Positions 16,754 through 30,668 of a DNA stretch of 64,000 nucleotides are shown here, piece by piece (positions within the stretch are counted from its first letter, which is position 1; each line of letters opens with the position of its first letter). This DNA comes from Luteimonas arsenica (lineage in GTDB: Bacteria; Pseudomonadota; Gammaproteobacteria; Xanthomonadales; Xanthomonadaceae). The position numbers and the translations under genes are program-made. Location of the stretch: assembly GCF_004352825.1 (NCBI RefSeq), contig NZ_SJRW01000001.1, forward strand, positions 620,001 through 684,000. Reading direction: 5' to 3'. The notes beneath the pieces were generated by a model. The model had not been told where the DNA came from. It worked only from the letters and a program-made list of their open reading frames with translations, and did not search any database.

Positions 16754-17365
16754 ATGTCCATCACCGCGGCCAGCGTCCGACACCTTCCGGCCAACGGCTA
16801 CCGCCGCCTGCGCTGGCGCAATGGCCTTGGCTGGACGCGCGAGATCCATGCCGCATCGGTCTCCGACGACGGTGGCGACGACTGGGACTGGCGGCTGTCG
16901 ATCGCCGAGATCGAGGCCGATGGGCCGTATTCGGCCTTTCCCGGCGTCGAGCGGGAGCAGGTCCTGCTGTCGGGCGAAGGCCTGGTGCTGGATTTCGGCC
17001 AGGGCGGCGAGCGCCTGCTGGAGCCACCGCACGGGCGGCAGCGCTTCGGCGGTGGCGATGCGCTGCTGGCGCGCCTTCACGCCGGCCGGGTCGAGGTGTT
17101 CAACCTGATGTGGCGTCCGGCGAAGGTGGCGGCGCAGCTGTGGCACCGGCCGCTGGTGGATTCGATGCTGCTGTTCGTCGATCCCGGCAGCACCTGGGCG
17201 GTGCACGTGATGGCAGGCCAGGCGATGCTTGATGGTGGCCGCGTGCTGCCGCTGCTGGAGAGGGGCGACAGCGCCCTGCTCGAGGCCCGCGAGGGCCGTG
17301 AACGGCACCTGCTGGAAGGCAGCGGCGACCTTCTGCTGGTGCGCGTGGAGCCGGTGGCTCAGTAG
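16754..17365 (+). CDS. hutD: HutD family protein
   Basis: HutD-type bicupin of 203 residues. The family is found with histidine utilisation genes and is thought to tune that pathway rather than catalyse a step. Characteristic segments are YRRLRWRNGLGWTREIH, WDWRLSIAEIEADGPYSAFPG and VFNLMWRP. No other hut gene is in the window, so this copy is an orphan here. Its stop overlaps the end of the convergent flavoprotein gene by seven bases. Confidence 0.9.
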   Translation: MSITAASVRHLPANGYRRLRWRNGLGWTREIHAASVSDDGGDDWDWRLSIAEIEADGPYSAFPGVEREQVLLSGEGLVLDFGQGGERLLEPPHGRQRFGGGDALLARLHAGRVEVFNLMWRPAKVAAQLWHRPLVDSMLLFVDPGSTWAVHVMAGQAMLDGGRVLPLLERGDSALLEAREGRERHLLEGSGDLLLVRVEPVAQ

Positions 17366-19053
17366 ACGTCGCGGCGGTAGTGGCCGGCGGCCAGCAGTTC
17401 GTCCACGCGCTCGCCGCCGAGGATGTCCCGCAACGCGGCGTCCACGCCCGGTGCCATGCCCTGCAGGCTGCCGCAGACCAGGATCGCGGCGCCGTCGTCG
17501 ACCCACTGCCGCAGGCGCGCGGACTCGGCGCGCAGCGCGTCCTGGACGTAGCCGCGGTGCACGGCTGCGCGTCCGCCACCCGTCGCGGCCGTGGGCAGGC
17601 CAGTGCCCTCGGGGTCACGGGAAAAGGCCAGGTCCAGGCGCGCCAGTCCGCCCGCGTCGAGCCACTGCAGGAGGTCTTCGCGCTGGTGGAAATCGCGGCT
17701 GGCGTGGCGCTCGCCAAACAGCAGCCAGTTGCGGTGGCGGCCCGCGGCGATGCGTTCGGCCAGGTGCGCGCGCAGCCCGGCGACGCCGGTGCCGTTGCCG
17801 ACCAGCACCAGCGGTGCGTCGGCGGCGGGCGCATGGAAGCCGGGGTTGGTGCGGATGCGCAGGTCGATCCTGCCGCCCTGCGGGGCGTGGTCGCACAGCC
17901 AGCCGCTGCCGATGCCGGGGCTGCCGTCGGGGCGCAGCATGCGCCGCAGCAGCAGGCGCAGGCTGCCTTCGCCGGGCACCGAGGCGATCGAGTATTCGCG
18001 TGCAGGCAGCGGCTGGAGGCGTCCTGCCAGCGCCCGGGCGTCGAGGCCGTCGACTTCGTCGGCGGCGGGGAGGTGGGAGCGCGAGAGCAGGTCGCGCAGG
18101 GTCGCGGGTGCATCGCCGGCGTCCACGCGGGCTTCGGGATCGAGTCCGGTCGCGGCGAGGAGGGCATCGACCGCGTCCGGCGCCTGGCGCGGCCCGATTT
18201 CGGCGATGTCGCCGGCATGCCAGTGCGCGCCACCTTCCGCCGGTGGCGACATGCGGACCTCGTACACCGCGCCGCCGGCGCTGCCGGGATTGAGTTCGCG
18301 GCGGCCGGCCAGCGTCCAGGCGGCGTACGCGGCGGGCGCCCAGTCGGGCAGTTCCGGCGCGCCGGCGACCACGCCCAGGTGGTGCTGCCAGTGGCGCAGC
18401 GCGGCCGGGTCGCCGTTGTCGACCTCGACGAGGTCGAACAGCGGGCTGGCGCCGGCGCCGCGCAGCCATTGGTCGAGCGCGTGGCCGAAGGCGCAGTAGT
18501 GGCGGTAGCTGCGGTCGCCGAGCGCGAGCACGGCGTAGCGCAGGTCGGGCAGGGTGGCACCGGCATGCATGGTGTCGCGGATGAAACCGGCGGCTGAGTC
18601 GGGGGCGTCGCCTTCGCCGGTGGTGCTGGCGATGAACAGGGCCTGCCGCGCGGCGGCCAGGGTGTCGGCATCCAGCGTCGAGATCGCGCGCAGGCGCGCG
18701 CGCCGGCCGGCGGCGCGCAGCGATTCGGCGGTGCGCTGGGCGAATTCGACCGCCTGGCCGGTCTGGCTGGCGTGGACGACGAGCCATTCGTCGGCGTCGG
18801 GGATGCCGGCTTCGGCCGCCTCGGCGGCGGCCTGCGCGCGTTCGCCGCGGCGCGCGCGCAGGAGCGTGGCCGCGCTGGCGCCGACATAGGCAATCCCCAG
18901 CAGGGCGGCCAGCCAGCCGTGGGCGGTCGTGGGTGCGCCCGGCCACCAGGCTTCGTCGTGCAGTGGCACGAAGGCCAGCGCCGCCATGGCCAGGGCGAGC
19001 AGGACGATGCCCTGCGCCGTGCGCGCGGTGCCGGAAGAGGCGGTGCCGCTCAC
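17359..19053 (-). CDS. Membrane-anchored flavodoxin/NADPH reductase (sulfite-reductase-alpha/CPR type)
   Basis: 564-residue diflavin reductase. Two hydrophobic segments at about residues 15-31 and 46-65 anchor it in the inner membrane. A flavodoxin domain follows with the FMN phosphate loop ASQTGQA (95-101), then STTGEGDAP and ALGDRSYRHYCAFG. The reductase half has the FAD motif REYSIAS, the NADPH loop GNGTGVAGLRAHL and FGERH. It should carry NADPH electrons from the cytosol to a membrane partner, most likely the PepSY protein encoded upstream. The GTG start at 19053 overlaps the apbE stop by four bases, making it the last gene of the cluster. An even longer upstream frame lies inside apbE and is rejected. 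Confidence 0.87.
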   Translation of the reverse strand: MSGTASSGTARTAQGIVLLALAMAALAFVPLHDEAWWPGAPTTAHGWLAALLGIAYVGASAATLLRARRGERAQAAAEAAEAGIPDADEWLVVHASQTGQAVEFAQRTAESLRAAGRRARLRAISTLDADTLAAARQALFIASTTGEGDAPDSAAGFIRDTMHAGATLPDLRYAVLALGDRSYRHYCAFGHALDQWLRGAGASPLFDLVEVDNGDPAALRHWQHHLGVVAGAPELPDWAPAAYAAWTLAGRRELNPGSAGGAVYEVRMSPPAEGGAHWHAGDIAEIGPRQAPDAVDALLAATGLDPEARVDAGDAPATLRDLLSRSHLPAADEVDGLDARALAGRLQPLPAREYSIASVPGEGSLRLLLRRMLRPDGSPGIGSGWLCDHAPQGGRIDLRIRTNPGFHAPAADAPLVLVGNGTGVAGLRAHLAERIAAGRHRNWLLFGERHASRDFHQREDLLQWLDAGGLARLDLAFSRDPEGTGLPTAATGGGRAAVHRGYVQDALRAESARLRQWVDDGAAILVCGSLQGMAPGVDAALRDILGGERVDELLAAGHYRRDVY

Positions 19054-20141
19054 TGTACGAGCCAGCGTTGGAAGGCCGCGGTGCAGCGTTCTTGAACGCC
19101 GTCCGCGGTGCGCACCACGAAGCGCGCGGCGATGTCGCGCGCTTCCGCCAGCGCGTATCCCTCGTCGGCGCCGAGCACGGTCAGGGCGGTTGCCCAGGCG
19201 TCCGCGGCCAGCGCGCGCTCGGCGACCACAGTGACCGCCGCGGGCGCGTGGTCGACGGGTGCGCCGCTGCGCGGTTCGATGGTGTGCGAATACAGGCGGC
19301 CGTCGTGTTCGAAGCGGTGCCAGTGGTCGCCGGAGGTGGCGACCGCGGCGTCGTCGAGGACCACGATGCAGGGCGGCTGCGTGCGTCGATCGGCAACGAT
19401 GCCCTCGCCACGGGCGTCGTCCGCATCGCGCCCGCCAGCGCCGTAGCCGTCCGGACCGCCGCCACCCCCGTGGTGGCCCCCGGGCAGGTCGGGCTCTTCT
19501 TCCGGCCAGGCTTCGGCCAGCACCTTCCACGCGCTGCCGTCGGGCTTGCGGCCGTAGCCGCGCAGTTCGCCGCCGACCTCGACCAGGGCCGCGGGCACGC
19601 CGCGCGCGCGCAGCCAGTCGACCACTGCATCCACGCCATGGCCCTTGGCGATGCCGGACAGGTCCAGGCCGACGCCGCCGGGCTGCAGTGCGCGCTGTCC
19701 TTCCACGTCGAGCTCGACCCGCCGCCAGCCCACGCGCGCGCGCGCGGCCGCGAGCGTGCCGGCATCGGGCACGCGGCCGCCATTGCCGCCCGCCCCGAAA
19801 CCCCAGGCCTCGACCAGCGGCCCGACCGTGGGATCGCAGGCGCCGGCGCTGTCGGCGGCGATCGCCAGCGCGTCGCGCAGCACGTCGAAGAACGGCTGTG
19901 GCAGCGCCTGCCAGCTGCCGGCCGGCGCCCGGTTGTAACGGCTGATGTCGGATTCGCGTTCCCAGGTGCTCATCTGCGCGACCACGCGATCCAGGCAGGC
20001 CTGGATGCCGTCGTGGATGGCATGCAGGTCGACGCCGGCAGGCGCCGACACCGAGGCCTGCCAGAGCGTGCCCATGGTGGCGCCGCCCAGCACGTGCACC
20101 GCGTGGGCGGGGCGCGCGCCGGTGGCGCCGGGCGCATCCAT
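19050..20141 (-). CDS. apbE: FAD:protein FMN transferase (ApbE)
   Basis: Attaches FMN covalently to a Thr/Ser of target proteins, using FAD. In 363 residues it shows GGATMGTLWQ at the start, the FAD-binding STWERESDISRYN, DLSGIAKGHGVDAVV, VEVGGELRGYG, ATSGDHWHRFE with SHTIEPRSG, and the metal-binding ADAWATAL near the end. Two oddities stand out. The N-terminus begins straight with the catalytic fold and has neither a signal peptide nor a lipobox, although most ApbE proteins are exported, and no in-frame start lies further upstream. A Gly/Asp/His-rich insertion of about 40 residues (GGHHGGGGGPDGYGAGG) splits the middle of the fold. The ATG shares one base with the DUF4198 stop. Confidence 0.93.
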   Translation of the reverse strand: MDAPGATGARPAHAVHVLGGATMGTLWQASVSAPAGVDLHAIHDGIQACLDRVVAQMSTWERESDISRYNRAPAGSWQALPQPFFDVLRDALAIAADSAGACDPTVGPLVEAWGFGAGGNGGRVPDAGTLAAARARVGWRRVELDVEGQRALQPGGVGLDLSGIAKGHGVDAVVDWLRARGVPAALVEVGGELRGYGRKPDGSAWKVLAEAWPEEEPDLPGGHHGGGGGPDGYGAGGRDADDARGEGIVADRRTQPPCIVVLDDAAVATSGDHWHRFEHDGRLYSHTIEPRSGAPVDHAPAAVTVVAERALAADAWATALTVLGADEGYALAEARDIAARFVVRTADGVQERCTAAFQRWLVQ

Positions 20142-21022
20142 TACTGCGGCAGGACTTCCAGGGTGGCGACGTAGCCCAGACGGCGACCGGTGGCCTGCGG
20201 CACGCTGGCCTTGTCGTCCTGGACGCTGGTTTCCAGCCAGTACATGCCGGCTTCCGGCCAGGTGACCTTCAGCAGGCCTTGGGCGTCGGTGGTCGCGGCG
20301 ATGTCGTCCTGGGCGTTGCGGTAGCGGGTGCCGCCGCGGACGATCTCGAACTCGAGGCCCGCCGCCGGCTGGCCGTCGACCAGGAAACGGAAGGTCGCCT
20401 CTTCGCCGGCGACGAGGTCGCTGGGATGGGTCACCGGCTCCATTTCGATGCCGCTGCCGGTGGGCGCGAGCGCGGTGGTGTCCGGCGCGCCGTTGGTGAC
20501 GAAGGTTTCCACGCGGCTGGCGGTCTGGGTGACCTGCAGGTTCCGTGCGTCCTGCGGCACCTTGGTCGCCAGGTCCTCGGGGGTGGCGTTGCGCAGGAAG
20601 CCGCCACGCGTTTCCGGCGGCGCGCCCGGGCCGCTGACCGGCTTGCCTTCGGCTTCGGCCTTCGCCTTGGCGGCCAGGCTTTCAGGCGTGTCCCAGCGTG
20701 CGGACATGCCGGAGTTGGCGTTGGCGATGCGGTAGGTGCCCTGCTGTTCGAGCTGCACGTCGAAGGTGCTGCGGTACTTGCCGACGCTGGTGTTCCTCAG
20801 CTCGACCTGGCTGCCGTCGGGTGCCGTGGCGGTGACGTTGTCCAGACGCATCGGGAAGTGGTCGGGGAAGAACAGCTGGTTGGAAATCGCGCCGTCGAAG
20901 GTCACCCACACGTCGGCACCGTTGACCACGGCCTGTGACGGGATGATCCACTGCTTGTGCGCGGACGCGGTCATGGGCAGCGCGGCGGCGAGCGCAAGCG
21001 CGAGTACGAGGGTCTTCTTCAT
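20141..21022 (-). CDS. DUF4198 domain periplasmic protein
   Basis: 293-residue exported protein. The signal peptide MKKTLVLALALAAALPMTASA precedes HKQWIIPSQAVVNGADVWVTFDGA, a His right at the mature N-terminus that is typical of DUF4198 and could bind metal. Two beta-rich, Ig-like regions follow, with QPAAGLEFEIVRGGTRYR and ATTDAQGLLKVTWPEAGMYWLE. DUF4198 proteins often sit with TonB receptors and are suspected metal or siderophore handlers; the exact role is unproven. The ATG at 21022 is chosen because it starts the signal peptide; an upstream in-frame start at 21121 is ignored. Confidence 0.9.
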   Translation of the reverse strand: MKKTLVLALALAAALPMTASAHKQWIIPSQAVVNGADVWVTFDGAISNQLFFPDHFPMRLDNVTATAPDGSQVELRNTSVGKYRSTFDVQLEQQGTYRIANANSGMSARWDTPESLAAKAKAEAEGKPVSGPGAPPETRGGFLRNATPEDLATKVPQDARNLQVTQTASRVETFVTNGAPDTTALAPTGSGIEMEPVTHPSDLVAGEEATFRFLVDGQPAAGLEFEIVRGGTRYRNAQDDIAATTDAQGLLKVTWPEAGMYWLETSVQDDKASVPQATGRRLGYVATLEVLPQ

Positions 21023-21092
21023 CGTCGGTCTCCGGAAAGGGTGGCGTGCGGTGTGATGCGGGGCTGGCCTGCGTGCTGCAGGGACGGCTGGT

Positions 21093-21608
21093 TCAGGGCT
21101 TGATGGCGAGGCTGACGGCACCGAGTTCGCTGTCGCCCTGGGCCTTGCCCGACTGCACGGCCTTCGCCGGCCAGTCGAAGGGCATCTTCAGCAGTTCGCG
21201 GCCGCCGACTTCGCGCACGGCTTCGACCACCACGGCGTAGCGGCCGGGGGCGAGGCCGGACAGGCGCGGGTCGCTGCCGTCGAACTTCAGCGCATGGCGG
21301 CCGGCCGGGCGCGTCGGCCCGGTCACGCCGTCGACCGGCAGCTGCTGCGTGCGCCCGGACTTGCGCCACCACTGGCGCAGGTCGGGCAGCCACTTGGTGC
21401 CATGGCCCTCGGCGGTGTCCTTCAGCATGTACCAGACCGCAAGGTCGGCGGCGGCCTTGCCGTCGGCACCTTCGACGTAGACCGCGACGTAGGGGCGGTG
21501 GTACTCGGCCACGGTCATGGACGGGATCTCGACCTCGACGGTCAGCTCCGCGGCGTACACCGGCGTGGCCAGCAGGCCGCCGAGGACGATGGTCAGGGGA
21601 ATGCGCAT
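21093..21608 (-). CDS. DUF2271 periplasmic protein, candidate flavinylated electron carrier
   Basis: 171-residue protein with a Sec signal peptide (MRIPLTIVLGGLLATPVYAA) and a beta-sandwich DUF2271 domain: YVAVYVEGADGK, LAVWYML, KWLPDLRQWWRKSG and PFDWPAKA. Residues 93-99 read D-G-V-T-G-P-T, close to the ApbE target pattern D-x-x-[ST]-G-A-[ST] in which the last Thr takes FMN; only the Ala is changed, to Pro. DUF2271 proteins are known to occur beside ApbE and PepSY genes, so a covalent FMN at Thr99 is inferred. The gene starts 23 bp after the PepSY stop. Confidence 0.88.
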   Translation of the reverse strand: MRIPLTIVLGGLLATPVYAAELTVEVEIPSMTVAEYHRPYVAVYVEGADGKAAADLAVWYMLKDTAEGHGTKWLPDLRQWWRKSGRTQQLPVDGVTGPTRPAGRHALKFDGSDPRLSGLAPGRYAVVVEAVREVGGRELLKMPFDWPAKAVQSGKAQGDSELGAVSLAIKP

Positions 21609-21631
21609 GTGTGGCCTCTCGGGATCGAAGG

Positions 21632-22276
21632 TCAATGGATGAAGAGCAGCGCCAGCAGCACCGGCACCACCAGGCCCAGGCCCACCCAGGGCCAGGTGCC
21701 GGGGCGCTGGCGCGCGTGCATCTGCAGTAGGAACAGGCCGGTCACCGTGAACACGATGCAGGCGATGGCGAAGACGTCGATGAACCAGCCCCAGGCCGGA
21801 CCGCTGTTGCGGCCCTTGTGCAGGTCGTTGAGGTAGGAGATCCAGCCGCGGTCGGTGCGCTCGTACTCGACTTCGCCGCTGGCCTTGTCGATCGCCAGCC
21901 AGGCGTCGCGGCCGGGGCCGGGCATGGACAGGTAGACCTCGTCCTCGGACCACTCCGCCTCGCGTCCGCCAATCGGCGCGCCCAGCTCGCCGCGCAGCCA
22001 GTCGGCGAGCGCGGCGGGCAGGGGCGCGGTGCCTTCTGCGTGGGCCTCGAGGGCGGGCAGCAGGTCGGCCGGCAGTTCGACCTGCCGGTTCTCGACTTCG
22101 GGGCTGCCCTCGATCTTCGAGGCGTGGTTGAGCGTGATCCCGGTGACCGCGAACAGCAGCATCCCCACCAGGCAGGCGGCGGAGCTGATCCAGTGCCACT
22201 GGTGCAGCGTGCGCAGCCAGAAGCCGCGCCGCTGCAGGGCGGCCGCGCTGGTGGTGGGGGATGGCTGTGCGGTCAC
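21632..22276 (-). CDS. PepSY-associated transmembrane protein
   Basis: 214-residue inner-membrane protein. An N-terminal helix ([21 protein letters not shown]) precedes a periplasmic PepSY-like region with [22 protein letters not shown], then come two C-terminal helices ([21 protein letters not shown] and [18 protein letters not shown]). Histidines in TLHQWHW, LNHASK and DLHKGR flank the helices, as in family members thought to move electrons across the membrane, perhaps via heme. Start chosen: GTG at 22276 ([11 protein letters not shown]), because the frame further upstream lies inside the receptor gene. A strong Fur-box-like palindrome lies 38 bp upstream. First gene of the PepSY-DUF2271-DUF4198-apbE-reductase run. 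Confidence 0.87.
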
Positions 22277-22314
22277 GTCGGGGCCGGGGCGGAAGTTCCT
22301 GGAACATAGCTGGT

Positions 22315-22333
22315 GATGAGAAGCATTCTCATC
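22315..22333. promoter_or_regulatory. Predicted Fur box before the PepSY gene
   Basis: GATGAGAAGCATTCTCATC contains TGAGAAG-C-ATTCTCA, a near-perfect 7-1-7 inverted repeat of the Fur type, placed between the receptor stop and the PepSY start. It implies that the five downstream genes can be switched by iron separately from the receptor. Confidence 0.72.
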
Positions 22334-22359
22334 GGATGGAGCAATCCCGCGGGGCATCC

Positions 22360-24750
22360 TCAGAACGACACGTTCACGCTGAGCCACAGGTTCCGCGACT
22401 TGTCCTTGTTGTTGTAGTCGTCCAGGTAGCTCGGCGACCACGCCAGGGTGTCGGGGTTCTGCACCCACACCGTCTGGAAGGAGGTGAAGTCCTCGTCCAG
22501 CAGGTTGTTGATGCGGGCGTTGAAACTGACGTTGTCGTTGAGGCGGTACCGCGCGCCGAGATGGAAGACGACGTAGTCCTCGTAGTACTGCGGGTTGCCG
22601 TCGGCATCGACGCTGCCGCGGTAGCGCTCGGAGCGCGACTCGGCCGCCAGCTGCATGCTGAATGCGTCGGTGGCCTGCCAGTTGAGGCTGGCGTTGGCCA
22701 TGTGCTCGGCGGTGTTGGTCAGCGGCAGGCCCTTCTGTGCGCCGCTCATCTGCTCGCTGTCGGTGTACGTGTAGTTGGCGCGCAGCGACCAGGCCTCGGA
22801 AATGCCCCAGCGGCCGGCCAGCTCCGCGCCCTGCACACGGACCTCGTCGATGTTGATGTTCTGCGCATAGGTCGTGTAGCCCAGCAGCGCGTAGTCGCCC
22901 AGGTTCGCGCAGGGGCGCACGCCGCCGGTCTGCTCGCAGCTCAGGCTGGTCTCGCCGCGGGCGATCTTGTCGTCGAAGTCGTTGCGGAAGACGGTGACGT
23001 TGAAGTTGTGGCGGCTGTCGGCCGACGTCCAGTACAGCGCGACCTCGCTGTTGACGCTGGTCTCGGGCTGCAGGTCCGGGTTGCCGACGAAGGGCGAGGT
23101 GCCCTGGCCGCCGAAGCCGGTGATGCCGTCGTACAGGTCGGTGGTCTTGGGCGTCTTGTAGCCGGTGCTGACGCCGCCCTTGAGGGTCCAGTTCGGGGCC
23201 ACGTCCCACACCGCGTAGGCGCGCGGGCTGAGGTGGCTGCCGAAGACGTTGTGGTCGTCGTGGCGCAGGCCGAAGGTGATGGTCAGGGCTTCGGTGGGGC
23301 TCCAGTTGTCCTCGGCGAACAGCGACCACATTTCGTGGTCCTGCACCGCGCCGGCACCGTCGCCGCCGCCTTCCATGCCGAACACGCCATCGTCGAGTTC
23401 GCCGTCGATCAGCTGGCCGCCGACGATCACGTGGTGCTGCGCGCCCAGGGCGAAGTCGGCCTTCGCGTCGAGCGTGTACTGGCTGCTTTCCATGTTGCGC
23501 TTGGGGCGCGGCAGGAAGGTGGCCTCGGCCAGCTGCCGGCGCTCGTCGCGGCCCATGCCGGCATAGGGGCCGGCGGCGCAGACCTCGGCGTTGCCGCAGT
23601 AGATGTCCTGGTGCAGCAGTCGTTCGGCCACGGTGAAGGGCAGGGTGCGGCCATGGTTGGCGGTGTCGATGTGCGCCAGCGACACGAAGGTGTTGCCCCA
23701 CTCCCACTGGCCCTGGTGGGTGAGCGACCACTGGTCGCGGGTGAACTCCTGGTCGGCCGAATAGCCGACGCGCGGTGCCGCGGCCCAGATACCGTTGATG
23801 CCGTCCACGGTGCCCAGCGGATAGGTCTCGGTGCCGAGGTTGTTGATGTAGGGCGTGTTGTCGTAGACCTGCTCGGAGGTGTCGTACTCGAACACCACGC
23901 TCTGGAAGTCGCTCGGCGTCCAGCTCAGCGTCACGCCGGCGGTCTTGTTGGTGTTGTCGACGGTCTTGCCGCCGCCGCCGAAGCCCAGCGAACGCTCGAA
24001 CAGGGTGCCGTCGGGCGCGGTGATGGTCTCGTACTCCGGAGTGGAGGCATCACGCTCGTACCAGGAACCGCGCACGCCGAGGCCGAGGCGGTCCTTGACC
24101 AGCGGGCCGGACAGCGCGAAATCGAAGGTGCTGTCGGTGCCGAAGTCGTCGTTTTCCTGGTAGTTGTACGAGGCGGTGGCCGAACCACTCCAGCGCTGGC
24201 CGACCTTGCGGGTGATGATGTTGATCACGCCGCCCATGGCGTCGGCACCGTACAGCGTGGACGCCGGGCCGCGGATGACCTCGATGCGCTCGATCATGTC
24301 CAGCGGCGGGATGTGGTTGAACTGGTTGCCGCCGAAGTTGTTCGGATAGATGTCGCCGTGGTTGTTCTGGCGGCGGCCGTCGACGAGGATCAGGGTGTAG
24401 TCCGAACCCATGCCGCGCATGCTGATGGTCTTCTGCCCGGTCTTGTCCGAGGTCTCGCCCACGTCCACGCCTTCCAGGTCGCGCACGGCGTCGATCAGGG
24501 TCATGTACGGGCGGGTGGTCAGCTCTTCGCGGGTGACCACGCTGATGCTGGCCGGGGCGTCGGTGATCTTCTGCTCGAAGCCGGCCGCGGTCACCACGAT
24601 CGCGTCGAAGTCGGTGGCGTCGGCGCTGCCGTCGGGCATCGCGTCCTGCGCCAGGGCGTGCGACAGCGGCAGCAGGGCGGCGATCGAGGCGAAGAGGAGG
24701 GTGCGCGCAGGCGTACGGCCTGCAAGCGTGCGGGCGGCGTGGGTGGCCAT
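22360..24750 (-). CDS. TonB-dependent outer-membrane receptor (ferric siderophore type)
   Basis: 796-residue outer-membrane receptor. It has a signal peptide ([18 protein letters not shown]) and a TonB-box-like DAIVVTA near residue 49. The plug domain shows [31 protein letters not shown] and [19 protein letters not shown], and the 22-strand barrel ends in a terminal Phe (LWLSVNVSF). The plug resembles FepA/CirA/BfeA-type catecholate receptors, so a ferric siderophore is the likely substrate, though this is inference. A cysteine pair in [13 protein letters not shown] may form a loop disulphide. A Fur-box-like promoter lies about 120 bp upstream. Confidence 0.95.
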
Positions 24751-24864
24751 GGAAGTCTAGCTCCGGGCGGGTTCGGGTGAGGGGCCCACGTCTCTGGCGA
24801 TGGCTGGACGGGTCGAACGGACGCCGGTCCTTCTTGGCCCAGGGCGCCCAATTCAGCGGGCGCC

Positions 24865-24893
24865 ATGTTAATGAGAACGATTTACAAACGCAA
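24865..24893 (-). promoter_or_regulatory. Receptor promoter overlapped by a Fur-box-like site
   Basis: On the minus strand, -35 TTGCGT (24888-24893) and -10 TAACAT (24865-24870) are spaced by 17 bp. The 19-mer GTTAATGAGAACGATTTAC (plus strand, 24867-24885) fits the Fur consensus at 13 of 19 positions and covers the spacer and most of the -10. Iron-replete Fur would therefore block this promoter. Confidence 0.65.
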
Positions 24894-25802: not shown

Positions 25803-27059
25803 CTACGCCAGAAGCCTGCGCACCTTGCGCAGCGCGGCGATGAAGGTGTCGATCTCGTCGTGGGTGTTGTAGAAGGCCAGCGAGGCGCGGCAGGTGGCCG
25901 AGACGCCCAGCCAGGCCAGCAGCGGGTGCGCGCAGTGCTGGCCGGAGCGCACGGCCACGCCTTCCAGGTCGAGCAGGGTGGCGAGGTCGTGCGAATGCAC
26001 GCCGTCGATGGCGAAGGACACCACCGCGGCCTTGCCCGGTGCGGTGCCGAACACGCGGAGGCCGTCGACCTTCGCGAACTCTTCCGAAAGGTGCGCCAGC
26101 AGCTCCTGCTCGCGGGCCTCGACCCGGGCCATGCCCAGGGCCGAGAGGTAGTCCACGGCCGCGCCCATGCCGACGAAGCCGGCGATGTTCGGCGTGCCGG
26201 CTTCGAACTTGCGCGGCGGGTCGTTGAACACGGTGTCGCCGTCCAGGCGCACCTCCTTGATCATCTCGCCGCCGCCGATGAAGGGCGGCATCGCCTCCAG
26301 GTGCTCGCGCCGCGCCCACAGCGCGCCGGTGCCGGTGGGCGCGCACATCTTGTGGCCGGTGAGCGCATAGAAGTCGCAGCCGATGGCGGCGACGTCGACC
26401 GGGCGGTGCGGCAGCGCCTGCGAGCCATCAACGACCGTGACGATGCCGCGCCTGCGCGCTTCGCGGCAGATGTCGGCCACCGGGTTGACGGTGCCAAGCA
26501 CGTTGCTGACGTGGCTGACGGCGAGCAGCTTCACGTCGCCGGTCATCTTCGCGCGCAGCATGTCGAGGTCGAGGCTGCCGTCGGGCAGCAGATCCACGAC
26601 CTCGATGCGCGCGCCGGTGCGCTGCGCCACCAGCTGCCAGGGCACGATGTTGGCGTGGTGCTCCATGCGCGTGAGCAGGATCGCGTCGCCGGCCTTGAGC
26701 CGCGGCAGCGCCCAGGAATAGGCCACCAGGTTGATCGCGAAGGTGGTGCCGCTGGTCAGCACCAGCTCGTCGGCGCGCACGTTGATGAAGCGCGCCAGCT
26801 TCGCGCGCGCGCCCTCGTAGGCTTCGGTGGCCTCGCTGCCGAGCTGGTGCACGGCGCGGCTGACGTTGGCGTTGTGGCGGCGGTAGAAGCCGTCGACCGC
26901 CTCGATCACCGTCGCTGGCTTCTGCCCGGTGTTGGCGGAATCGAGATACACCAGCGGCTTGCCGTGGACCTCGCGCGCAAGCAGCGGAAAGTCCTCCCGG
27001 ACCCTGGCCCAGTGCACGCCCGAAGCCGGCTCGCCTTCCTCCACCTGCGACTCCCTCAC
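25803..27059 (-). CDS. sufS: Cysteine desulfurase SufS
   Basis: PLP enzyme that takes sulfur from cysteine and passes it as persulfide to the SUF scaffold. The 418 residues show the N-terminal DFPLLAREVHGKPLVYLDSA, TSGTTFAINLVA, MEHHANIVPW, VDGSQALPH, the PLP lysine at about residue 237 in TGHKMCAPTG, and the persulfide Cys at about residue 376 in VRSGQHCAHPLL. It is a group II enzyme by the short Cys loop. The GTG at 27059 (VRESQVEEG) overlaps the sufD stop as GTGA; longer upstream frames are rejected. Confidence 0.96.
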   Translation of the reverse strand: MRESQVEEGEPASGVHWARVREDFPLLAREVHGKPLVYLDSANTGQKPATVIEAVDGFYRRHNANVSRAVHQLGSEATEAYEGARAKLARFINVRADELVLTSGTTFAINLVAYSWALPRLKAGDAILLTRMEHHANIVPWQLVAQRTGARIEVVDLLPDGSLDLDMLRAKMTGDVKLLAVSHVSNVLGTVNPVADICREARRRGIVTVVDGSQALPHRPVDVAAIGCDFYALTGHKMCAPTGTGALWARREHLEAMPPFIGGGEMIKEVRLDGDTVFNDPPRKFEAGTPNIAGFVGMGAAVDYLSALGMARVEAREQELLAHLSEEFAKVDGLRVFGTAPGKAAVVSFAIDGVHSHDLATLLDLEGVAVRSGQHCAHPLLAWLGVSATCRASLAFYNTHDEIDTFIAALRKVRRLLA

Positions 27060-28326
27060 GCCAGCACCTGCGCGGCGATCGCCCGGTCCAGCCATCCCTC
27101 CAGCAGCTCCCGGATCGCCGGCGTGGTCACCACCGACACCAGCGGCTCGCGCACGAAGGCCGCGGTCAGCAGCGCCCGTGCCTCGGCCTCGGGCAGGCCG
27201 CGCGAGCGCAGGTAGAACATGGCGTTGTCGTCGAGCTGGCCGACGGTCGCGCCGTGGGCGGCGGTCACCTCGTCGGCATGGATCACCAGCACCGGTTGGG
27301 TGTCGATCTCGGCGGTGTCGGACAGCAGCAGGTTCTTGTTCGACAGCTTCGCGTCGGTGCCGTCGGCGCCCTCGCGGATCTCGATGCCGCCGTGGAAGAC
27401 GGCGCGGCCGCGGCCGGCGGCCATGCCGCGCCAACCCAGCTCGCAGCGGGTGTCGCGCGCGATGTGGTCGATGCCCAGGCGGGTGTCGAGGTGGCGGCGG
27501 CCCGAGGCCAGCAGCACGCCGTTGGCGACCAGCTCGGCCTTCTCGCCCTCAAGGCGCACGTTGAGCTCGTGGCGCGACAGCGCGCCGCCCAGCTCGAGAT
27601 CCAGGCGCCGGTAGCTGGACTCGCGGGCGAGCACGGCGTCGGTGCGGGTGATGAGCGTGGCGCGACCGGATTCGTCCTGCACGCGCGCGTGGCGCAGCGA
27701 GGCACTGGCGGCGACATGCACATGGGCGATGGCGTTGCCGAGATGGGCGTGGTCACCGGCGGCGACGTGGTGTTCGATCACCGTCGCCGAGGCGCCGCGG
27801 CGCAGTTCGACCAGGTGGCGCGAGTGCCAGGCGAGGTCGCCTTCGGCGGGCTGGCCGATGAAGACCAGGTGCACCGGGGCCTGCACGGCCACGCCTTCGG
27901 CGATGCGCAGCACCGCGCCGTCGTCGGCCAGCGCGGCGTTGAGGCGGGCGAAGACCTCGTCGGCGCGCTCGTAGCTGCGCGCCAGCACGTTGCTCTCGCG
28001 CGGGTCGGGGTCGGCCAGGGCCTCGGCCATCGACAGCAGGCGCGCGCCTTCCGGCAGGCCGGCGGTGTCGGACAGCGCGGCATCGTGGCGGCCGTTGACG
28101 AAGACCAGGCGCGGTGCGGGGACGCCGGCGACCAGCGCGGGGTCGACGCCGGCCTGCGGCAGCGGCGCGGGCGAGAAGGCGCGGCGCTCCAGCGCCCGCA
28201 GCGAGGTGTACTTCCAGGCCTCGCTGCGCGCGTGCGGCAGGCCGTCGCGCAGCGCGGCCTCCATCGCGGCCTGGCGCGCGCCGTCGCCGCTGAAGTCCGC
28301 GGCCAGCGAGTCGAGCAGGGTGGCCA

Positions 28327-28327
<1 letters not shown>
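27056..28327 (-). CDS. sufD: Fe-S assembly scaffold subunit SufD
   Basis: Partner of SufB and SufC in the SufBC2D scaffold. 423 residues, the usual length. The N-terminal region has GLPHARSEAWKYTSL, and the beta-helix core ends with VGQLDDNAMFYLRSRGLPEAEARALL, a close parallel to SufB. The His in AHGATVGQLD fits the conserved C-terminal position used in cluster building. The ATG at 28327 shares one base with the sufC stop (TAATG). Confidence 0.95.
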
Positions 28328-29094
<767 letters not shown>

Positions 29095-29156
29095 GTGTGT
29101 GTTCTGGATTCTTTGGGAAATGGTCGCGGGGTTTGCCCCCATCCGCCCTTCGGGCA

Positions 29157-29180
29157 CCTTCCCCCGCGGGCGGGGGAAGG
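29157..29180. repeat. Hairpin in the sufB-sufC spacer
   Basis: CCTTCCCCCGC and GCGGGGGAAGG-like arms form an almost perfect 24-base palindrome three bases beyond the sufB stop, with a smaller GCCC-TTC-GGGC hairpin (29145-29155) beside it. The sequence style is that of the short CT/GA-rich palindromes scattered between xanthomonad genes. It is the only large gap inside the operon. Confidence 0.55.
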
Positions 29181-29183
29181 GAG

Positions 29184-30668
<1,485 letters not shown>

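Follow-up and report, generated by a model that had tools for sequence, protein, structure and literature searches.

The 64,000-nucleotide stretch of Luteimonas arsenica analysed here (GCF_004352825.1, NZ_SJRW01000001.1, positions 620,001 to 684,000 of the forward strand; hereafter the window) carries on its minus strand, from 17359 to 24750, a run of six genes, which the Pfam domains identify as a TonB-dependent receptor, a PepSY membrane protein, a DUF2271 protein, a DUF4198 protein, an ApbE flavin transferase and a reductase (Table 1). An earlier reading of the DNA letters alone (the sequence-only reading) had described a six-gene chain on one strand, overlapping starts and stops at the end of the run and two Fur-like sites, all of which were borne out. 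Read directly from the sequence, base 20141 is common to the DUF4198 TAA and the ApbE ATG, and the ApbE TGA overlaps the reductase GTG at 19050-19053. The sites were scored as matches out of 19 to a Fur consensus 19-mer.

Table 1. Genes and Fur-like sites of the operon (window coordinates)
Feature	Position	Strand	Support
TonB-dependent receptor, CirA/FepA-like	22360-24750	-	PF00593 5e-58, Plug 7e-30
PepSY_TM_like_2 membrane protein	21632-22276	-	PF16357 5e-88, PF03929 1e-9
DUF2271, signal-like N-terminus, DGVTGPT at residues 93-99	21093-21608	-	PF10029 2e-49
DUF4198, signal-like N-terminus, His22 right after AxA	20141-21022	-	PF10670 6e-57
ApbE flavin transferase, no export signal detected	19050-20141	-	PF02424 8e-74
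Flavodoxin/CysJ-like reductase, membrane-anchored, GTG start	17359-19053	-	Flavodoxin_1 2e-25; NCBIfam CysJ 7e-60
Fur-like site before receptor	24867-24885	.	13/19 to consensus
Fur-like site, receptor-PepSY gap	22312-22330	.	14/19 to consensus

Clusters of this type have been described before. Méheust 2021 reported clusters of PepSY, DUF2271, DUF4198 and ApbE genes, some with a TonB receptor as in the window, and proposed that they reduce siderophore iron (PMC8238504), which rules out the idea of the sequence-only reading that the system is little described. According to that source, inclusion of a cluster required a signal peptide on one or more of its ApbE, FMN-binding (flavin mononucleotide, FMN), DUF3570 and DUF2271 genes, and a secreted DUF4198 is frequent in the clusters, not universal (1500 of 3220). 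The window shows three features of this class, namely a three-segment PepSY protein with PF16357/PF03929, a signal-like DUF2271 and a signal-like DUF4198. The published clusters have the motif [S/T]GA[S/T], whereas the window has TGPT, a separate membrane-anchored reductase and an ApbE without an export signal. The window operon is a further example of the published iron-reduction class, and its unexplained oddity is the ApbE that lacks an export signal.

Two other systems can be compared with it. By description, the Fur-controlled operon CC_3059-3063 (CCNA_03155-03159) of Caulobacter crescentus has the same five gene kinds in the same series; no receptor is named within it in the available parts of PMC3751524 and PMC12004947, while the window operon has one. 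FoxB and HiuB resemble the window in having a PepSY membrane protein with histidines, putatively paired in the window protein, and an adjoining receptor gene, but no DUF2271, ApbE or flavin part is described for them in the accessible accounts, and the window PepSY protein belongs to PF16357 with three hydrophobic segments.

To see how far the gene set holds together, as the sequence-only reading had proposed to check, we collected loci of three kinds: 46 from relatives, 80 named (the best 80 of 534, hence biased to close kin) and 60 from phylum and class searches. The window part brought these 186 loci to 187 records, of which 170 had DUF2271 by profile, and dropping 11 identical DUF2271 domains left 159 non-redundant clusters, all of them therefore chosen for holding DUF2271. 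A profile search detected DUF2271 in 43 relatives out of 150; for class genomes the figure was 26 of 369 (13 over cut-off), for phylum genomes 70 of 398 (65 over cut-off). The nearest named match to the window's DUF2271 is that of Luteimonas padinae (89% identity). It turned out that PepSY lies near DUF2271 in 153 of the 159 clusters, DUF4198 in 156, ApbE in 133 (four as DUF2271 fusions) and the reductase in 130, while a TonB receptor occurs within 6.5 kb in 107; PepSY, DUF2271, DUF4198, ApbE and reductase are all present in 118. The expected co-occurrence was thus found, within a set selected for DUF2271. In the broad sample of 44 loci, PepSY (42) and DUF4198 (43) are nearly always kept, and ApbE (24), the reductase (24) and the receptor (11) are found beside DUF2271 less often. 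By these figures, PepSY, DUF2271 and DUF4198 make up a general core, with the receptor as a partner chiefly in the form of close relatives.

Distribution within the genus is patchy: DUF2271 occurs in 16 same-genus genomes beyond the window's own, and many others listed have none. The cluster in a record titled Bacillus subtilis SK7B5 has a DUF2271 that is 68% identical to the window's and ranks among Stenotrophomonas and Xanthomonas loci; it probably comes from a contaminated assembly. Besides, the profile did not pick up 17 loci (L072, L074, L200-L212, L216 and L217), which stand outside all counts based on the 159 clusters. They form a second subtype with a divergent DUF2271, mostly with GxTGAS or GxSGAS, and no DUF4198 was found in the 17; by Pfam, L072 and L074 have a PepSY_TM-flavodoxin-NAD-binding fusion. 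By eye, 14 ApbEs of this subtype were seen without a signal, whereas the 17 DUF2271 proteins carry one.

The putative flavin attachment site was located by scanning for D-x-x-[ST]-[GSA]-[AP]-[ST]. The motif is present in 151 of 159 DUF2271 proteins and nearly absent from the other operon proteins (absent from all 153 PepSY and all 156 DUF4198, present in one each of 133 ApbE, 130 reductases and 107 receptors), and its Asp and last Thr are invariant in 12 aligned DUF2271. Compared with DxxTGAT, the window form keeps Asp, Thr, Gly and the final Thr and has Pro instead of Ala; the letter string [S/T]GA[S/T] itself is unmatched in the window DUF2271. The sequence-only reading missed this proline variant, which occurs in 26 of the 43 clusters from relatives, in 66 of the 71 named ones and in 7 of the 44 of the broad sample. 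Flavinylation was demonstrated in 2021 for the DUF2271 of A. ursilacus, which has [S/T]GA[S/T], and was lost when Thr was changed to Ala (PMC8238504), so that the earlier statement that DUF2271 has no firm biochemical role is outdated. The N-terminus of the window DUF2271 is signal-like, with a score of 2.42. One DUF2271 was found in the window's own genome, and it is the only substrate class present there of three searched: neither FMN_bind nor NqrB/RnfD was found, in a search that did not extend to DUF3570 or other substrate classes.

In the window ApbE, the segments ATSGD, SHTIEP and ADAWATAL align to PDB 5mgy and 6nxi, and by our own assignment of these segments they would supply the Ser, His and Asp active-site residues, whose roles are taken from PMC12052999. 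A Gly/His/Asp-rich insertion (residues ~214-256) lies between two stretches aligned to the PDB ApbEs. This ApbE is the only one found in the genome. For any start codon, no uncharged hydrophobic run was found up to 80 codons upstream of the fold, and no export signal or lipobox was detected, a point overlooked by the sequence-only reading. Signals were called with a simple hydrophobicity scan (threshold 1.8), not SignalP; as controls, it was positive for 142 of 142 DUF4198 bearing AxAH, 1 of 94 HutD and 142 of 154 stand-alone DUF2271. For the stand-alone cluster ApbEs, only 16 of 129 were positive, and 10 of the 16 were judged genuine by eye.

The mismatch between the two proteins is also found genome by genome. 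We hand-picked 55 genomes, mostly with an ApbE adjoining the cluster, from about 108 with DUF2271 over cut-off; exactly one ApbE was found in 47 of them and no FMN_bind in 51. We tabulated 43 of the 47 single-ApbE genomes, omitting three with a signal by eye and one (G797) with its ApbE elsewhere. In 34 of the 43, DUF2271 is signal-positive and ApbE signal-negative, in 5 both are negative (DUF2271 scores 1.5-1.78, below 1.8) and in 4 both are positive. In the available parts of PMC8238504, PMC11334425 and PMC12052999, a cytosolic ApbE appears only alongside soluble or intracellular substrates, and within this partial coverage of the literature we did not find the mismatch stated. Some signal-less ApbEs (e.g. 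L159, L179 and L187, broad sample) share a short RVLIP-like tail at the N-terminus; the corresponding regular expression matches 19 of 129 ApbEs, and one of these matches (L035) is a signal peptide. The idea that the Pro motif and the missing ApbE signal evolved together was dropped, as a FastTree phylogeny of 129 ApbEs gave only 3 supported independent pairs (signal state by eye), a number too small to judge by.

With no export signal seen on ApbE, DUF2271 probably receives its FMN prior to export, and this is what the mismatch most simply suggests; alternatively, ApbE may be exported by an unconventional route, or its substrate may be different. The last of these would mean that ApbE acts in the cytoplasm on another protein and that DUF2271 is an unflavinylated, plain periplasmic partner. 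The missing signal and the TGPT in place of TGAT would suit such a case, and a known cytosolic ApbE does modify a soluble fumarate reductase (PMC12052999). We consider it rather unlikely, though, given that the genome yielded neither of the other two substrate classes searched, that the motif is practically confined to DUF2271 among the operon proteins and keeps its Asp and last Thr there, and that ApbE adjoins DUF2271 in most clusters. As a tentative generalisation, plausible and somewhat short of probable, a cytoplasmic ApbE would flavinylate DUF2271 ahead of Sec in most PepSY/DUF2271 systems, with no periplasmic FAD (flavin adenine dinucleotide) needed, and the Pro motif would be a lineage form.

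Which metal is handled can be approached from the regulatory sites and from DUF4198. In a first-order Markov model of the window, about 0.1 sites with a score of at least 13 are expected per 64 kb (10 samples). The score alone is unspecific, because three other window sites reach 13-15 (an overlapping pair at 60.1 kb and a single one at 53.7 kb). For 152 of the 159 clusters, which have PepSY and enough upstream DNA, a site of at least 13 precedes PepSY in 41 and the receptor in 29 of 79; one before either gene is found in 65 of 152 clusters, compared with 12 of 624 random windows, the 'either' figure being the best of two windows with the receptor windows longer, which tilts the comparison somewhat toward the clusters. 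The Caulobacter operon CC_3059-3063 is Fur-repressed and iron-responsive according to reporter and binding data (PMC3751524). In the favoured reading, the window operon is predicted to belong to the PepSY-like flavinylation class and to be an iron-starvation operon of the Fur type.

In 98% of 157 DUF4198 proteins, His directly follows the AxA cleavage pattern. A search of solved structures with the single sequence gave nothing, and the profile gave a weak match to 9mhi (E 0.0024). The structural model (predicted local distance difference test score, pLDDT, 92) matches Zcp (PDB 9MHI series; Z 18.8, root-mean-square deviation 3.0, 211 aligned), solved with Zn, Cu or Co, and the Ni-bound IsDUF4198 (9gcb; Z 15.4, root-mean-square deviation 4.2, 204 aligned), both with only 15-17% identity to the window protein. 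IsDUF4198 was shown in 2025 to bind Ni2+ through its N-terminal His and His18 with a dissociation constant of 18 nM (PMC12537917), which rules out the earlier view that DUF4198 lacks a firm biochemical role. The N-terminal His is common to both proteins, whereas mature position 18, which by its number would correspond to the second Ni ligand, is not His in the window DUF4198; His34 and His178 are conserved instead. From its predicted fold and N-terminal His, the window DUF4198 is a metal-binding candidate.

The Ni affinity of the homologue and the metals in Zcp, together with the Bordetella PepSY protein CrpH that has been tied to copper, would agree with a cluster that reduces or handles Ni, Cu or Zn with DUF4198 as the carrier. 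Nevertheless, this is improbable in view of the Fur-like sites at the operon and related clusters, the iron response of the homologous Caulobacter operon, a receptor nearest CirA/FepA and the lack of a His at mature 18.

The PepSY protein has three hydrophobic segments and strongly conserved histidines: His28 and His153 are invariant and His25, His51 and His187 reach at least 90% (48 sequences). This PepSY alignment (A3) draws 47 of its sequences from the 80 named loci and one from the window; the DUF4198 alignment (A2) draws 49 from the named loci and likewise includes the window. The histidines are consistent with two heme sites, by analogy with FoxB. The reductase has two hydrophobic N-terminal segments (~residues 10-35 and 47-66), scores 203 bits against NCBIfam CysJ, far under the equivalog cut-off, and is presumably dependent on reduced nicotinamide adenine dinucleotide phosphate (NADPH). 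The nearest solved chains of the receptor are the colicin I receptor CirA (2hdf, 7e-88) and then ferric enterobactin receptors. In the genome, no FecCD permease was found over cut-off, which fits a release of iron in the periplasm. That PepSY is itself an inner-membrane siderophore permease, as proposed for Alteromonas PepSY proteins (PMC7190382) and as the missing FecCD would allow, is very unlikely for a protein with just three hydrophobic segments, a conserved histidine set and a neighbouring reductase and ApbE that point to redox, and FoxB and HiuB are read as reductases in the accounts available.

We consider it likely, from the sequences and by analogy with published systems, that NADPH electrons pass through PepSY to a flavinylated DUF2271 and reduce siderophore iron in the periplasm. 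A catecholate-type ferri-siderophore would enter through the receptor. In the cytoplasm, NADPH would be the donor that reduces the membrane-anchored reductase, in which flavodoxin and CysJ-like domains are found. Hemes bound by the conserved PepSY histidines would carry the electrons through the membrane, to reach an FMN that ApbE would have bound to the last Thr of DGVTGPT, flavinylation being known for the homologue. The FMN of DUF2271 would then reduce periplasmic Fe(III), and DUF4198, which may bind metal through its mature N-terminal His, would probably hold the released iron or substrate. The PepSY protein HiuB is needed for xenosiderophore use, and insertions in CCNA_03155-03159 of Caulobacter lower fitness in ethylenediaminetetraacetic acid (PMC12004947). 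The electron route of the sequence-only reading is right in outline: it matches the Méheust 2021 proposal (PMC8238504) and fits the data from Caulobacter, where it has been put to a partial test (PMC3751524, PMC12004947). Of the interpretation as a whole, this part stood, while the claims of missing biochemistry and of a little-described system did not.

Several observations weigh against this route. ApbE looks cytosolic though DUF2271 is exported, and the broad sample often has no ApbE, reductase or receptor beside DUF2271. For Fe(II) import, no Nramp was found over cut-off in the genome and no convincing FeoB: the best FeoB_N match we take to be Era, recognised from its sequence and neighbours, two more matches, both within one 490-amino-acid frame, are presumably Der-like, and six further matches were not looked into. 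Sequence searches of solved structures with PepSY gave nothing useful, with FoxB not among the matches listed; the PepSY model (pLDDT 88, predicted template modelling score 0.68) had no significant fold match, its best Z of 6.7 being within the common range, and FoxB was not among the Foldseek/VIA matches listed either, an absence which is no evidence against the likeness. In the window motif, Pro takes the place of the Ala of the published form, and in another substrate an Ala to Val change reduced flavinylation to about half (PMC12052999). IsDUF4198 prefers Ni, and iron is absent from the metals listed in the available text of PMC12537917.

Around the operon, Pfam identifies a HutD gene that follows it in tail-to-tail orientation, while upstream there is a gene for a Rieske protein. 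Further upstream on the same strand (25803-30480) there are genes that, by eye, we take to be a SUF-like iron-sulphur assembly set (SufS-, SufD- and SufC-like); Rieske and GNAT-like genes sit between the operon and this set.

In conclusion, the window operon is a clean, receptor-linked example of its class, in a genome where one ApbE and no siderophore ATP-binding cassette permease over cut-off were found, so that few genes would have to be considered to read its function. Through the localisation mismatch it becomes testable where exported proteins get their flavin and how FAD reaches ApbE, a route called obscure by a 2025 review (PMC12052999). If the attachment happens inside, flavin loading would precede export, and a periplasmic flavoprotein would leave the cell interior already loaded with its flavin, without need of periplasmic FAD.

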